Origin: Deltaproteobacteria bacterium
GTDB lineage: Bacteria; Desulfobacterota; Desulfobaccia; Desulfobaccales; Desulfobaccaceae
Reading direction: 5' to 3'
Assembly (NCBI GenBank): GCA_019309545.1
Contig: JAFDGA010000005.1
Location: 1-64,000, forward strand
Length of the DNA stretch: 64,000 nucleotides
Part shown: positions 6,459-13,203 of the stretch, one piece after another
How the letters are laid out: each line of letters begins with the position of its first letter
Numbering within the stretch: position 1 is the first letter of the stretch
Program-made: the position numbers and the translations under genes
Notes under the pieces: generated by a model
Databases searched by the model: none
Seen by the model: the letters and a program-made list of their open reading frames with translations, nothing else
What the model was told of the DNA's origin: nothing

Positions 6459-7532
6459 ATGGTTAAGGCATTGAATCACAACGAATTAAGAATAACTGCC
6501 CTACGCCTTCTGGCCTGGGAGGTGACCCGGCGCTGTAATCTGGCCTGTGCCCATTGTCGGGCTGCAGCGGGGCGGGGGCCGTATCCAGGGGAGTTGACCA
6601 CGGAAGAGGGTAGGGCACTCTTGGATGATCTGGCCACTATGGACCAAGTGGTGGTCATTCTTACCGGCGGGGAGCCGCTCATGCGGGATGACCTGTTGGA
6701 ACTGGCAGCCTACGGCACCGGCCTGGGACTCAGGATGGTGGCTGCAGTCAACGGCACCCTGCTGACTCCTCAAATAGCCGCTGATCTTAAGGAGGCGGGC
6801 ATCCAGCGGGTCAGCATCTCCATCGATGGAGCTGAAGCCGCCAGCCATGACCGGCTGCGCCAGGTGCCGGGGGCTTTCGAGGGGGCCTTAGGTGGCATCG
6901 CCGCCTGCCGGGAGGCCGGGCTGCCTTTCCAGATCAATACTACTATTACCCGAGCGAATCGTCTGGAGCTTCCGGCCGTCTACGACTTGGCTTTGAGACT
7001 GGAAGCCGCGGCTCACCATGTCTTTGTGCTAGTGCCCACCGGCCGCGGGCAGGAGATCAAAGACCAGTTGCTGTCTCCGGAGGAATACGAGGCCACCCTG
7101 CACTGGCTGCTGGACCGGCAGCGGGAAGGGCGGCTGCACCTCAAGCCCACCTGCGCGCCCCAGTATTATCGACTGTGGCGGCAAGAGGCCGCGGCGCGCG
7201 GTGAGACCATTTCCGTCACCAGCCACGGCATGGAGGCCATGACCCGGGGTTGCTTAGGGGGGCAGGGGTTTGCCTTTGTCTCTTATCGGGGCGAAGTGCA
7301 GCCCTGCGGTTATCTGGATCTGTTGGCCGGGGATATCCGGGAGGCGCCGTTCCCCGAAATCTACTCTAATTCGCCATTGTTCCGGGCCCTGCGGGCGGTT
7401 AATGACTACCACGGCAAATGTGGCCGCTGCGAGTTTCGCCGGGTCTGTGGCGGTTGTCGGGCCCGAGCCTATGTCTTGACCGGCGACGTGGTGGGCGAGG
7501 ACCCGTTATGTGCCTATGAGCCGGAAAGCTAA
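6459..7532 (+). CDS. ahbD: AhbD-like radical SAM heme synthase
   Basis: A 357-residue radical SAM/SPASM protein. The [4Fe-4S]-SAM motif is CNLACAHC (Cys26, Cys30, Cys33). C-terminal cysteines in CGRCEFRRVCGGC plus a later Cys form the auxiliary cluster region. The CAPQYYR segment and overall layout fit AhbD, which converts Fe-coproporphyrin III to heme b by oxidative decarboxylation of two propionates in the alternative siroheme-based heme pathway of sulfate reducers and archaea. The related NirJ and AhbC proteins are the main alternatives; the downstream overlapping Ahb decarboxylase gene favours a heme-pathway role. No clear Shine-Dalgarno site precedes the ATG at 6459, and the leader is very AT-rich, so the start could be a few codons off. 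An IS remnant lies immediately upstream. Confidence 0.85.
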   Translation: MVKALNHNELRITALRLLAWEVTRRCNLACAHCRAAAGRGPYPGELTTEEGRALLDDLATMDQVVVILTGGEPLMRDDLLELAAYGTGLGLRMVAAVNGTLLTPQIAADLKEAGIQRVSISIDGAEAASHDRLRQVPGAFEGALGGIAACREAGLPFQINTTITRANRLELPAVYDLALRLEAAAHHVFVLVPTGRGQEIKDQLLSPEEYEATLHWLLDRQREGRLHLKPTCAPQYYRLWRQEAAARGETISVTSHGMEAMTRGCLGGQGFAFVSYRGEVQPCGYLDLLAGDIREAPFPEIYSNSPLFRALRAVNDYHGKCGRCEFRRVCGGCRARAYVLTGDVVGEDPLCAYEPES

Positions 7533-7998
7533 TCAGCAAGGAAATGAGGCCCTGGACGATCTGGACCGGGCGATTCTGAACGAAATCCAGGTGCATTTTC
7601 CCATCGTCTCCCGGCCTTATGCCGAAGTCGGGCAGAAATTGGGGCTGACCGAGGCCGAGGTCCTGGCACGAGTTCAGCGGCTGCATGATCAGGGGATCAT
7701 CCGGCGTATTGGGGCCAATTTCAATTCCCGGAAATTGGGTTACACCAGCACCCTGTGCACCGCGGAAGTGCCGGAAGAGCAGATGGAGCATTTCGTCCAG
7801 GTGGTGAACCGCTATGCCGGGGTCACCCATAATTATCTGCGGCGGCACCGCTACAATATCTGGTTTACGGTAATTGCCCCCTCCACTGAGAAGATCGAGG
7901 AGATTTTAACCGAGATCTCCATGCAAACCGGGATCAAGGAAATTTATAGCCTGCCAGCCCGGCAAATCTTCAAAATCCAGGCGGATTTTCCCTTATAA
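7510..7998 (+). CDS. ahbA: siroheme decarboxylase subunit, AhbA-like (Lrp/AsnC-related)
   Basis: A 162-residue protein of the AhbA/AhbB/NirDLGH family: an Lrp/AsnC-like helix-turn-helix half (LDRAILNEIQ, GLTEAEVLARVQRL, GIIRRIGANFNSRKLG) and a C-terminal ferredoxin-like half with VTHNYLRRHRYNIWFTVIAP. These proteins decarboxylate siroheme to 12,18-didecarboxysiroheme, usually as an AhbA-AhbB heterodimer. The SRKLGYTSTLC segment looks more like AhbA than AhbB, but I cannot separate the two with certainty. The partner subunit and AhbC are not in the window. The gene overlaps the end of ahbD by 23 bases. GAGGA at 7498-7502 supports the GTG at 7510, with ATG 7516 as alternative. Its 3' end overlaps the convergent stress-protein gene by six bases. 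Confidence 0.8.
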   Translation: MPMSRKANQQGNEALDDLDRAILNEIQVHFPIVSRPYAEVGQKLGLTEAEVLARVQRLHDQGIIRRIGANFNSRKLGYTSTLCTAEVPEEQMEHFVQVVNRYAGVTHNYLRRHRYNIWFTVIAPSTEKIEEILTEISMQTGIKEIYSLPARQIFKIQADFPL

Positions 7999-9182: not shown

Positions 9183-12107
9183 CTAGCTGCTTGAAGGGAA
9201 AAACCGAGCCTTGGTCCAATCCACTGGAAACCTAACCAAGGCTCCCTGGCGGTGTTGATAAATCAGATGTCCATGGCGCACGCCGAATTCGAATAGGGCG
9301 CGGGTGAGCCTGACATCTTGTTGGCAATAAGCAATCAGTTCGGATAGCCGACCTTCCTTAAAGAGTTTAAGGGCCAAAAAGCCATCGCCGCTTTTGGCCT
9401 GCCCCAAGGTTTTTTCGGCCAGGTGGCCTAAAGATAGGCGAATACCCAGGATTTGATGAACATCCTCCAGAATGTCAAAAGTAGGAATAGTGGCTAAATC
9501 CACCGTGGTATAGGGTTGCAGAACCTGATAGTCAAACCTTTTCAGGTTAAACCCGACCACCAGATCCAGCTCCTGGAGACGAAGACAGAGTTTATCGATA
9601 TCTGGTTCCAGATAGATTTCGCAGTCCTCCTGCTGACTCACCCCCAGGACCGCTACGGAAACCTTCATGTTATGACATCGGCTCCAACCGCCCACTTCTT
9701 CAGCCGAAAATTGCGTTTCCAAATCCAGAAAGCCGATGCCGTGAGGTGTTTCCCAGGGCCAGGAATCCGTCGAGGTTACCCTGAGGGCCGGGGCGCGGGC
9801 TTCGGCGACTTGAGTCAGGGATGGTTTGAGAGCTGGCAGGGCTCTCAGCCCCAGCATGAATTCGGCAATCTGCAGGGCAGCGACTTTGTCCAGTGGTTTA
9901 TTACCCGAGCCGCATTTCGGGGAATGGATACAGGAGGGACAGCCTTCTTCGCAGGGACATTCAGCAATCAGTTCTTTGGTTTTGCTGAGCAGCGGTTCGG
10001 CCATCTCATAAGCCCGGGAGGCCAAGCCGACGCCGCCCGGATAGCCATCATAGATAAAAACCGCGGCCTTGCCAACCTGGGGATGGAAGGGATGAGAAAT
10101 GCCGCCGATATCGTTGCGGTCGGCCAGGGCAAACAGTGGAAACATGCTGATCAAGGCATGCTCCAGGGCATGGATGCCGCCCATAAAATGCAATCCTTGC
10201 TGGTAAATTGCGGCCTTGATAAAATCCTCGATCTCAAACCACATGCCTACGGTCTCGAAGATCTGCGGGGGCAACTCTAGGGAGATAATACTTAGCAGTT
10301 CCTGGCCGTGAAGACGGCGTTTTTCATAGGCCAGGATGCGTTCGGTAACCTTGAGGTGGCCAGTGCGGACCATAAAGTGGGCCAAGCGGCGGCTGGCGGT
10401 GACCTCCAGAATCTCTGTCTCCTTGTCGGTCTGGATCCGGGTGAAGTAGCTCGGCTCCACCCGGTTGACCCAGATATTACGGCGCTCCAGATCTAAATTT
10501 TCTACCAGGTAGGAGTTAGCCTTATGCAGATAGACCGCGCCAGGATGGCATTCCTTCAACGCCCGATGGCCATCGATGGTGCCGATGGCCTTGCGGCTGC
10601 CGACCTTGAAGATCGCAAAGCTTTCGCCTACGCCCCGGATATTGATCTGTTTCTGGGGAAAGCGGTGACGGGCGTACCAGGTCTCCCCGGCTGCACTGCG
10701 CAACAACTGGTTTTCCCGCTCCAGTTCGGCAATCAGGCCGCGCACCCGATCCGGAGCAAAAGCCTGCTCCTGATTTAACTCCAGGGGCACTTCTTGCGCC
10801 GCGGCCAGGAGATGCGCCTTGACTACCACGGGATTATTAGGATCCAGGACCGCGGCCTCAAGCGGCCGGGAGAAAAACTCTTCCGGATGTTTGATAAAAT
10901 ACTGGTCCAAGGCATCGGGCTGGGCAACCATGACCACCAGCGAGTCCTGACCCAGACGGCCCACCCGGCCACTCCTCTGCCAAGTGGTCACCATAGTGCC
11001 AGGATAACCTACCAGCAGGCAAACATCCAGGCCGCCGATATCAATGCCCATTTCCAGGGCGCTGGTCGAAATTACCCCCAACATGCGACCGCTGACCAGT
11101 TGCTGCTCAATCTCCCGACGCTCTTCGGGCAGAAATCCGGCCCGGTAGGAGCTGATGCGACGTTTTAGCTCCGGGGCCAGGCGCAAGGCCCAGAGATGCA
11201 GCAGCTCGGTAAGTTTCCGGGCCTGGGTAAAACAGATGGTGGCCAGACCATGGCGCAAGGCCTGAATAAAGAGGCGGGCGGTGGTTTGGGCAGCGCTGAG
11301 CGTCGGATTGAGAAACAGGAAATGGCGTCCGGCCTGGGGAGCGCCGTTGGCGGCGATAATCGTCACTTCCTGGCCGATTAACAGCCGGGCCAGGTCCTCC
11401 GGGTTGGCAATCGTCGCCGAGGACAGGATAAATTGCGGGGAAGCCCCATGATACTGGCAAACCCGGCGCAGCCGGCGCAAAACCTGGGCCACGTGACTGC
11501 CCATGATGCCTTTGTAAGTATGGACCTCATCGATCACCACAAACTTCAGCCGGGCAAAAAAATCCGGCCAGGCTTGGTGATTAGGCAACAGGCCCATGTG
11601 CAGCATATCTGGGTTGCTGATCAATATCTGCGGCGGCCGGGCCCGGAGACGCTTGCGCATTTCAATCGGGGTGTCACCGTCATAAATAGCCGCCGAGAAA
11701 GCAGGGTAGGGCAGGGCGGCGGCCAGTTCTTCCAGGGCTTTCAACTGATCCTGCTCCAGGGCCTTGAGAGGAAACAGGTAAAGGGCATGCGCGGTCGGGT
11801 CCTGTAAAAGGGTGGCGGTCACCGGCAGATTGTAAATTAAGGTCTTGCCGCTGGCGGTAGGGGTGGCCACCAGAATCTGTTTGCCGGCCTGCAGGGCCGC
11901 CAGGGCCTCCAACTGGTGACGGTAGAGGCGGGCAATGCCCAGCCGTTCAAGGGCCGCCCAGAGGTCCGGGGGTAGTTCTACCTCGGGTCCGTGGTAATCC
12001 GCCGGTTGCGGGGCAAGGTAATGGTAATAACTGGTAATCTCCTGGAGATCCGGGTCGCCGCGCAACCCTTCCAGGAAATCAGCCAGGACAGTCTTATTTG
12101 GTACCAC
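9183..12107 (-). CDS. MrfA-like DEAD/DEAH helicase fused to a DEDDy exonuclease domain
   Basis: A 974-residue protein. Residues 60-400 are a superfamily 2 helicase: Walker A ATPTASGKT (81-89), DEVH (193-196), SAT (230-232), and motif VI QRSGRVGR. Near 683-740 is the YprA/MrfA-type C-terminal region (DUF1998-like) with a four- or five-cysteine zinc site (Cys717, 719, 723, 726, 732). Residues 788-945 form an RNase H-fold exonuclease with Asp795/Glu797 (FLDLET), Asp859 (GFNLKRFDY) and Tyr927/Asp931 (YCQQD), a DEDDy arrangement. In Bacillus, MrfA helicase and MrfB exonuclease are separate proteins acting together in mitomycin-damage excision; here both activities sit in one chain. The GTG at 12107 is the best start, since upstream residues only translate the overlapping peptidase gene out of frame. 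The two genes overlap by 14 bases. No ribosome-binding site is obvious, so translational coupling is likely. Confidence 0.85.
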   Translation of the reverse strand: MVPNKTVLADFLEGLRGDPDLQEITSYYHYLAPQPADYHGPEVELPPDLWAALERLGIARLYRHQLEALAALQAGKQILVATPTASGKTLIYNLPVTATLLQDPTAHALYLFPLKALEQDQLKALEELAAALPYPAFSAAIYDGDTPIEMRKRLRARPPQILISNPDMLHMGLLPNHQAWPDFFARLKFVVIDEVHTYKGIMGSHVAQVLRRLRRVCQYHGASPQFILSSATIANPEDLARLLIGQEVTIIAANGAPQAGRHFLFLNPTLSAAQTTARLFIQALRHGLATICFTQARKLTELLHLWALRLAPELKRRISSYRAGFLPEERREIEQQLVSGRMLGVISTSALEMGIDIGGLDVCLLVGYPGTMVTTWQRSGRVGRLGQDSLVVMVAQPDALDQYFIKHPEEFFSRPLEAAVLDPNNPVVVKAHLLAAAQEVPLELNQEQAFAPDRVRGLIAELERENQLLRSAAGETWYARHRFPQKQINIRGVGESFAIFKVGSRKAIGTIDGHRALKECHPGAVYLHKANSYLVENLDLERRNIWVNRVEPSYFTRIQTDKETEILEVTASRRLAHFMVRTGHLKVTERILAYEKRRLHGQELLSIISLELPPQIFETVGMWFEIEDFIKAAIYQQGLHFMGGIHALEHALISMFPLFALADRNDIGGISHPFHPQVGKAAVFIYDGYPGGVGLASRAYEMAEPLLSKTKELIAECPCEEGCPSCIHSPKCGSGNKPLDKVAALQIAEFMLGLRALPALKPSLTQVAEARAPALRVTSTDSWPWETPHGIGFLDLETQFSAEEVGGWSRCHNMKVSVAVLGVSQQEDCEIYLEPDIDKLCLRLQELDLVVGFNLKRFDYQVLQPYTTVDLATIPTFDILEDVHQILGIRLSLGHLAEKTLGQAKSGDGFLALKLFKEGRLSELIAYCQQDVRLTRALFEFGVRHGHLIYQHRQGALVRFPVDWTKARFFPSSS

Positions 12108-13203
12108 AATCAAAATGGGGCCAATCCGTGTGATAGCCGAAGTAGTACCACTCCTGGGGCACTCGGTAGCCGATCTGCTTGGCCGCGTCGTAGACCCAGG
12201 ATGGAAGATTACGGGCGTCCAACCGGTGCATGGCGTTCCGGTTAAACTGCCGCAAAGCCCGGCTGATAGGGTTGGGGGTGCCATCCACCACCCCGGGAAA
12301 ATTGAAATCATTCAGATCTAAAGCACAGCCCAGCCGGTGATTGGATGCCCTGGCATGCCGTCCATGATGCACCACGGCCATACTGTCGTAATATTTGCGC
12401 ACCACCTCACAATCCAGGATGGCGCCCTCTTCGTCGGGAAAACTCAAGCATTCGACGAATACCGGCCCGGAAGAGGCGGCGGCCGCATAGGTGTCCTCCC
12501 CGCCCCGGATCACCAGGAGCGGCAACCGCTTTTCCAGCTGAAACAGTCCTTCTCTGAAAATATACTCTATTAGGAGGGCAGCAAATGGAGCGTGTAAGCT
12601 GTTGATTTCGAACCATAAGGTATCGGCCCGATATCGGGCTTTGTTATTGATCTCCTTCAGGTCTGAGGCAAACCAGACCTGACCGCATAAGCGCGGCAGG
12701 CGCTCCGCTACGTCCTGCCATTTTTTCGTAAAATCCCCATAGGTTAGCACCCGCTTGGCCTTGGCCGGAACCCATACCGGGACCTTAAGCATCACCCCGA
12801 CGGCATCACCGTTGGGCCAGCGTAAGCGCCTGATGAATTCCCAGGAAAGCTCACCGCCATTAGAACGGATAAGTCCCAGAGAGCGCTCTCGCATGGCATA
12901 AAGTCGTGGCATATCCATCAACTCCCGGGCCTGGTCTATCTTGCTGATAAAATCTTGCTGCCGGTCTTCCGCGCTCATCTGGGGATCATAGTTTAATCCG
13001 AGCTGTTTTAAGACCGCAGCCAGCTTCGGCGCTTGATTGGGATGGATGAGGCAGGGCTGCAAGCCTCGCACCCAGAGGAATCCCGAGTCAACTGGTTGGG
13101 CCAAGGTCAGCCGGGAGAAGCCCAGAACTGCTATGACTATCAGTAAAAAGCCATATTTCCTGGGAGCTTTAGACTGAACGGCTAGTCTATCATGGATTAG
13201 CAT
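12094..13203 (-). CDS. M15-like (VanY/DD-carboxypeptidase fold) exported peptidase
   Basis: A 369-residue protein with an N-terminal signal or anchor segment (FLLIVIAVLGFSRLTLAQ). The C-terminal hundred residues carry the zinc-peptidase pattern of family M15: SNHRLGCALD (His289, Asp296) and HTDWPHFD (Asp360, His363). The central region has no family I recognise. M15 enzymes cleave D-Ala-containing peptidoglycan peptides, so a periplasmic wall-trimming role is likely. The gene overlaps the start of the helicase-nuclease by 14 bases, an odd partnership that may only reflect compact packing. The start ATG lacks a clear ribosome-binding site, but its signal peptide fits. Confidence 0.7.
   Translation of the reverse strand: MLIHDRLAVQSKAPRKYGFLLIVIAVLGFSRLTLAQPVDSGFLWVRGLQPCLIHPNQAPKLAAVLKQLGLNYDPQMSAEDRQQDFISKIDQARELMDMPRLYAMRERSLGLIRSNGGELSWEFIRRLRWPNGDAVGVMLKVPVWVPAKAKRVLTYGDFTKKWQDVAERLPRLCGQVWFASDLKEINNKARYRADTLWFEINSLHAPFAALLIEYIFREGLFQLEKRLPLLVIRGGEDTYAAAASSGPVFVECLSFPDEEGAILDCEVVRKYYDSMAVVHHGRHARASNHRLGCALDLNDFNFPGVVDGTPNPISRALRQFNRNAMHRLDARNLPSWVYDAAKQIGYRVPQEWYYFGYHTDWPHFDCGTK

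Follow-up and report, generated by a model that had tools for sequence, protein, structure and literature searches.

A predicted DEDDy-type exonuclease domain fused to a putative MrfA-family helicase in Desulfobacterota

Introduction

MrfA (YprA; PDB 6ZNP, 6ZNQ and 6ZNS) and MrfB (YprB; 8UN9) of Bacillus subtilis are separate proteins, a 3'-5' helicase and a 3'-5' exonuclease, respectively, that are epistatic in mitomycin repair (PMC11194089; PMC12458937). Complementation across species is reported to require alleles that are closely related (PMC12458937). MrfB has been classed as a DEDDh enzyme with His258 in the active site, and an AlphaFold model of MrfAB places a free 3' DNA end near this site (PMC11194089). 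The MrfA-MrfB complex is known as a model only. A natural single chain fixes the stoichiometry, allows the coupling of unwinding and digestion to be assayed directly, and should be easier to solve as a structure.

A 3'-5' exonuclease and a helicase are found in one chain in Staphylococcus aureus DinG (SaDinG), which is linked to mitomycin resistance and has been compared to a naturally fused MrfA-MrfB of opposite polarity (PMC12345164). However, SaDinG includes a DinG helicase of 5'-3' polarity and an N-terminal DEDDh exonuclease (PMC12345164), and its similarity to an MrfA-type fusion is convergent. Fusion of YprA helicases to exonucleases as such is already known from a 2025 preprint, the available part of which names YprA helicases 'fused to MrfB/YprB homologs' (PMC12458937); the DNA-repair branch described there probably includes the architecture reported below. 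The mention is brief and, in that part of the preprint, is made without the exonuclease type, a DEDDy site or exclusion of MrfB. As far as the literature searched shows, a fused exonuclease of a DEDDy type that is distinct from MrfB and excludes MrfB in its phylum is new.

Results

The fused gene

The window, i.e. the whole stretch of 64,000 nucleotides analysed (contig JAFDGA010000005.1 of assembly GCA_019309545.1), contains the following features of interest.

9183..12107, minus strand: whole fused gene of 974 aa, from a GTG at 12107 to the stop codon at 9183-9185; one match in its own genome
11394..11921, minus strand: RecA-like domain 1 (DEAD), residues 63-238; PF00270, E=3e-29
10950..11255, minus strand: RecA-like domain 2 (Helicase_C), residues 285-386; PF00271, E=3e-12
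10632..10847, minus strand: winged helix of the HRQ1/MrfA type, residues 421-492; PF22982, 39.4 bits, cut-off 27
9927..10166, minus strand: MrfA Zn-binding domain (MZB), residues 648-727; PF09369, 84 bits, cut-off 24.2
9738..9884, minus strand: flexible linker, residues 742-790, with modelled disorder at 762-780
9210..9737, minus strand: predicted DEDDy 3'-5' exonuclease domain, residues 791-966; family profile A1, predicted model and fold
12094..13203, minus strand: upstream gene, 14-bp overlap with the start of the fusion; weakly similar to M15 peptidases

The single 974-residue chain described in an initial annotation, which did not state the strand, was recovered on the minus strand, where translation from 12107 to 9183 runs without a stop; read on the plus strand, this interval has stops throughout. 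The frame remains open further upstream to an ATG at 12311 (1042 aa), crossing the 3' end of the gene at 12094-13203. The GTG at 12107 is a plausible and likelier start, because it is retained in two 85%-identical relatives, and an in-frame TTG two codons upstream of it is a possible alternative. The genome assembly (2.43 Mb, 96 contigs) carries the fusion gene in one copy. The closest named relatives are in Desulfobacca sp. MAGs (L031 and L034; 85-86% identity), which makes the host a Desulfobacca-like member of the Desulfobacterota, and full-length homologues of the fused protein range from 45 to 86% identity. Together with low dN/dS ratios (see below), these homologues indicate that the fused architecture far exceeds chance expectation.

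The helicase part

The claim of a full helicase with a zinc-binding region was confirmed. In a search with the whole protein, the DEAD, Helicase_C, WHD_HRQ1 and MZB models of Pfam all exceeded their cut-offs. RecA-like domain 1 includes the Walker A motif TPTASGKT at residue 82, DEVH at 193 and SAT at 230, and RecA-like domain 2 includes motif VI, QRSGRVGR, at 377. Cys717, Cys719, Cys723 and Cys726 of the zinc module do not vary across an alignment of 50 sequences, split MrfA homologues among them. The best solved relative is B. subtilis MrfA (6znp), which aligns over residues 9-730 (E=7e-153) and also takes ranks 1-4 in a fold search with the full-length predicted model. The NCBIfam model TIGR03817 matched over its full length at 745 bits, below the equivalog cut-off of 874. 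Thus, judging by full-length homology and the four-Cys module, the N-terminal part belongs to the MrfA/YprA helicase family. It shares with B. subtilis MrfA the whole helicase, the winged helix and the four-Cys MZB; MrfA itself lacks a C-terminal exonuclease, and its partner is the separate protein MrfB.

The exonuclease part

The initial annotation further claimed a complete DEDDy site, and D795, E797, D859, Y927 and D931 are indeed at exactly the positions given. D795, E797, D859 and D931 are invariant in 53 relatives, and Y927 is Tyr in 52 of the 53 and His in one; hence the claim is borne out by both position and conservation within the family. The one exception, a fused protein at L052:4845-8033, has His for the catalytic Tyr (EHCRRDV), a natural DEDDy to DEDDh swap. 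A signature A-x2-VGGW-x5-M is invariant in the fused-domain relatives.

The C-terminal domain does match an exonuclease profile: RNase_H_2 scored 19.0 bits in the whole protein (cut-off 22) and 23.8 bits for residues 791-966 alone, and was matched by 35 of 35 tested members of the fused exonuclease family. Matches of residues 791-966 to the PolA and PolB exonuclease models were weaker. An AlphaFold2 model of the domain (pLDDT 95.6, pTM 0.90) gave archaeal B-family polymerases as the best PDB fold matches listed (TM 0.65 on the query), and the other matches listed included T7 polymerase, TREX1, Pol epsilon, Pol II and NrnC exonucleases. In a viral structure library, the model also matched phage RNase H-like and PolB-like exonucleases. 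A PDB profile search with the exonuclease alignment returned only KtrA, viral gB and complex I, which were discarded as spurious. The D-x-E, D and Y-x3-D elements and the modelled fold point to a DEDDy 3'-5' exonuclease of the DnaQ-like/RNase H-like superfamily, for which metal-dependent 3'-5' exonuclease activity is predicted.

Between the two parts lies the linker, with pLDDT below 50 at residues 762-780 of the predicted model. Across 39 fusions, the linker is 46-138 residues long and 17% identical, as compared with 54-60% for the flanking domains. The dN/dS ratio against the nearest relatives is about 0.09 for the helicase, 0.27-0.40 for the linker and 0.10-0.13 for the exonuclease, which indicates purifying selection on both the helicase and exonuclease parts.

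Comparison of the fused domain with MrfB

The fused domain and B. subtilis MrfB are alike in being RNase H-like DEDD 3'-5' exonuclease partners, by prediction in the former, of an MrfA-type helicase, and their D, E, D, D and F-D positions are equivalent. F171-D172 of MrfB aligns with the invariant F858-D859, and His258 and Tyr927 share the X-x3-D position. However, at the position of His258, a set of 35 MrfB-type domains, including B. subtilis MrfB from 8UN9, has His in 35 of 35, as against Tyr in 52 of 53 fused relatives. RNase_H_2 scored 138 bits for MrfB and 23.8 for the fused domain. Family profiles were compared by hhalign, since a single MrfB sequence gave too weak a match; the fused and MrfB profiles matched with E=1.6e-5 (8e-7 in the reverse direction), the fused profile matched stand-alone RNase_H_2 proteins of the helix-hairpin-helix (HhH) type with 1e-11, and the MrfB profile matched the latter with 1e-22.

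The A-x2-VGGW signature of the fused family was not found in MrfB, and 8un9 was not among the best 50 fold matches listed for the exonuclease model. The N-terminal extension of MrfB is absent from the fused domain, and so is its TPR tail, the chain ending about 8 residues past the exonuclease domain; the MrfB homologue of a split operon (L105) carries TPRs. The position of the wedge residue Leu113 of MrfB is occupied by Ser, Leu or Thr in the fused family (S801 here). Because of the Tyr in place of His, the profile distances and the missing TPR tail, the fused exonuclease would, unless divergence has been very strong, be distinct from MrfB and represent a separate branch of the same RNase H-like superfamily. 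The identity with MrfB that was implied earlier is therefore not upheld: the fused domain is DEDDy rather than DEDDh, scores 23.8 against 138 bits, has no TPR tail and never co-occurs with MrfB (see below).

A second RNase_H_2 protein of 253 aa with a Y-x3-D motif is encoded in the same genome (L108:1246-2007; contig C2:98445-98891). It has a helix-hairpin-helix-like N-terminal segment and by profile is nearer to MrfB than the fused domain is.

Distribution of fused and split forms

The fused-type exonuclease was surveyed in 297 Desulfobacterota, 189 Myxococcota and 148 Nitrospirota genomes; in the Desulfobacterota, fused and split forms were compared with E<=1e-30 as the threshold for a query match and E<1e-14 for a clear MrfB. 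The exonuclease profile was seeded with fused proteins, and stand-alone forms may be under-counted. The fusion recurs in Desulfobacterota and Myxococcota, and split MrfB is found in other genomes. The query was matched in 132 of the 297 Desulfobacterota, in one of them (G228) through the exonuclease alone. The fused-type exonuclease is present in 86 of the 297, and in 80 of them it is part of a single frame of 940 aa or more; the hits outside long frames are contig-edge or broken pieces, save for a clear stand-alone gene in G228. Clear MrfB was detected in 40 of the 297, and most of the MrfB genes directly adjoin a separate helicase gene, the product of which is 35-43% identical to the fused one.

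No Desulfobacterota genome of the 297 carries both the fused DEDDy domain and MrfB. The 132 query-matching genomes comprise 85 with the fused type only, 36 with MrfB only, 11 with neither and none with both. Fisher P values for the exclusion, 7e-7 for the 297 genomes and 6e-23 for the query-matching ones, ignore kinship and are thus overstated; the mutual exclusion is confounded by shared ancestry.

In Myxococcota, the fused-type domain is present in 15 of 189 genomes, and in 14 of these the frame is 1,000 aa or longer. The three occurrences among 148 Nitrospirota are all in short frames; the two complete copies (L212 and L213) are stand-alone genes, and no full MrfA-type helicase was matched in their genomes. 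Nitrospirota, Chloroflexota and some Desulfobacterota have related helicases that are paired with neither exonuclease. Internal stops suspected in some relatives were actually the normal terminal stop past the domain, the frames reaching about residue 966, and MrfB frames of ~1,200 aa (G021, G223 and G285) were rejected as fusions, being long open frames that overlap the helicase gene in another frame.

Several genomes depart from the two arrangements. The stand-alone DEDDy exonuclease gene of G228 (L106:2610-3269) is located just downstream of a gene judged by eye to encode a dGTPase-like HD-domain protein, in a genome that gave no full MrfA-type helicase match. In G102, the DEDDy exonuclease is present a second time as a stand-alone gene (contig C12; L194:1885-2433) adjoining a 593-aa helicase-like gene and ~12 kb from a 1,623-aa frame with a YprA-like helicase match; this region may be a defence island. 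Four genomes of family f46 (G059, G123, G151 and G265; L192 and L193) have an MrfB-type DEDDh exonuclease and no helicase match at E<=1e-30, and appear to represent an orphan MrfB lineage.

Evolutionary history

A tree of 118 helicase sequences unites the fused forms with a set of exonuclease-less helicases of Nitrospirota and Desulfobacterota in one group (local support 0.91), within which all fused forms but the basal L043 fall into one subclade of low support (0.23). Split MrfA-MrfB forms occupy two other groups. The labels on the tree require 5 changes, whereas shuffled labels require 40 or more. The identities of the helicase part correlate with those of the exonuclease part (r=0.81, none of 999 permutations being as high), as would be expected if a single ancient fusion had been passed on in one piece.

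The pairing of an MrfA-type helicase with a different exonuclease is probably a partner replacement. It seems rather likely that MrfA-family helicases gained a dedicated 3'-5' exonuclease at least two times from different subfamilies in a mutually exclusive manner, namely the DEDDh enzyme MrfB in trans in some lineages, and in Desulfobacterota and Myxococcota the DEDDy domain in cis. This suggests that the same two-step repair machine was put together more than once from different parts; if true, one helicase-exonuclease excision pathway would have evolved convergently, a covalent tether having taken the place of the docking segment of MrfB. Alternatively, the fused domain and MrfB, which are remotely homologous, may share common descent, after which the whole unit diverged. 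If the exonuclease was recruited independently, pairing with a 3'-5' exonuclease would be a functional requirement of the helicase family and not an accident of one operon. The fusion thus supports the functional pairing proposed in the initial annotation only in a general sense, between MrfA-type helicases and some 3'-5' exonuclease, and not between MrfA and the MrfB family, and an RNase H-like partner of a YprA helicase is not automatically MrfB.

Discussion

The gene product is probably a DNA helicase and exonuclease in one chain, belonging to the MrfA/YprA repair branch, in which a DEDDy exonuclease, and not MrfB, is tethered for lesion excision. The polarities, substrate and repair role are proposed by analogy with the characterised MrfA and MrfB. 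The N-terminal ~740 residues would fold into a ring made up of the RecA domains, the winged helix, an OB/connector and the zinc module, and this motor part would move 3' to 5' on single-stranded DNA, unwinding the duplex. The flexible tether of ~50 residues would keep the DEDDy two-metal 3'-5' exonuclease beside the strand path. Because motor and nuclease would run the same way on one strand, the tethered domain would meet the same 3' end and digest it behind the motor; removal of the damaged stretch would be followed by re-synthesis. The DEDDy domain would thus fill the role held by MrfB in Bacillus and other Desulfobacterota. Like the fusion described here, WRN has a 3'-5' helicase, of the RecQ family, and a DEDDy 3'-5' exonuclease on a single polypeptide, but its exonuclease is N-terminal, its helicase belongs to another family and the protein is eukaryotic.

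A different task for the same enzyme, with RNA or an RNA:DNA hybrid as the substrate or with another DNA transaction such as fork or R-loop processing in place of lesion excision, would agree with the occurrence of RNase D- and NrnC-like enzymes among DEDDy folds and of NrnC among the fold matches. It is rather unlikely, given that DNA polymerase proofreading domains are the best fold matches and that DNA is the target of the MrfA relatives. The protein might also be a true MrfA-MrfB fusion, in which a diverged MrfB exchanged His for Tyr and lost its TPR tail; the shared superfamily and RNase_H_2 match, the coinciding His258/Tyr927 and F171-D172/F858-D859 positions, the His in fused member L052 and the naming of such fusions in the preprint (PMC12458937) are consistent with this. 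That MrfB is far nearer to the HhH-type RNase_H_2 proteins (1e-22) than to the fused domain (1e-5 to 1e-6) makes it unlikely, as do the scores of 138 and 23.8 bits, the A-x2-VGGW signature not seen in MrfB, the Ser, Leu or Thr at the Leu113 position and the placing of 8un9 outside the best 50 fold matches listed.

Defence is a common role of YprA helicases, which often carry nucleases at the C-terminus, and the C-terminal part of TALON adopts an RNase H fold (PMC12458937); partial PADLOC matches to the helicase core would also fit a defence helicase-nuclease of the TALON, ARMADA or Druantia type rather than a repair enzyme. This we consider very unlikely. The PADLOC matches are weak or core-only, there are no defence genes among the neighbours examined, and the TALON neighbours (NERD nuclease, TPR-CSD and TBP) were not found among eight nearby genes scanned. 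The RNase H fold of TALON is inactivated, whereas all five catalytic residues of the fused domain are intact and conserved; MrfA is the closest sequence, and the gene is present in nearly whole clades and is not patchy. An assembly chimera or frame artefact, conceivable in a draft genome of 96 contigs, is hardly credible: a chimera is ruled out by recurrence of the fusion in many independent genomes, including Myxococcota and the single-contig G191, G282 and G015, and both domains are under purifying selection.

Genes around and opposite the fusion

The upstream M15-like gene scored 20.1 bits with PF13539, below the cut-off of 25. Its position beside the fusion is conserved within the order, and it is outside the proposed mechanism. 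The neighbourhood was rejected as a functional clue, being uninformative: the M15-like gene upstream and the redoxin and Usp genes downstream persist in close relatives only. On the plus strand opposite the fusion gene, a 254-aa antisense open frame (9516-10280) is mirrored in relatives and is most likely a by-product of codon composition. Elsewhere in the window, at 6459-7998, a radical SAM/SPASM gene overlaps an AsnC-like gene of the siroheme-decarboxylase type (NirDL-like HTH), a pair that likely belongs to the alternative haem pathway.
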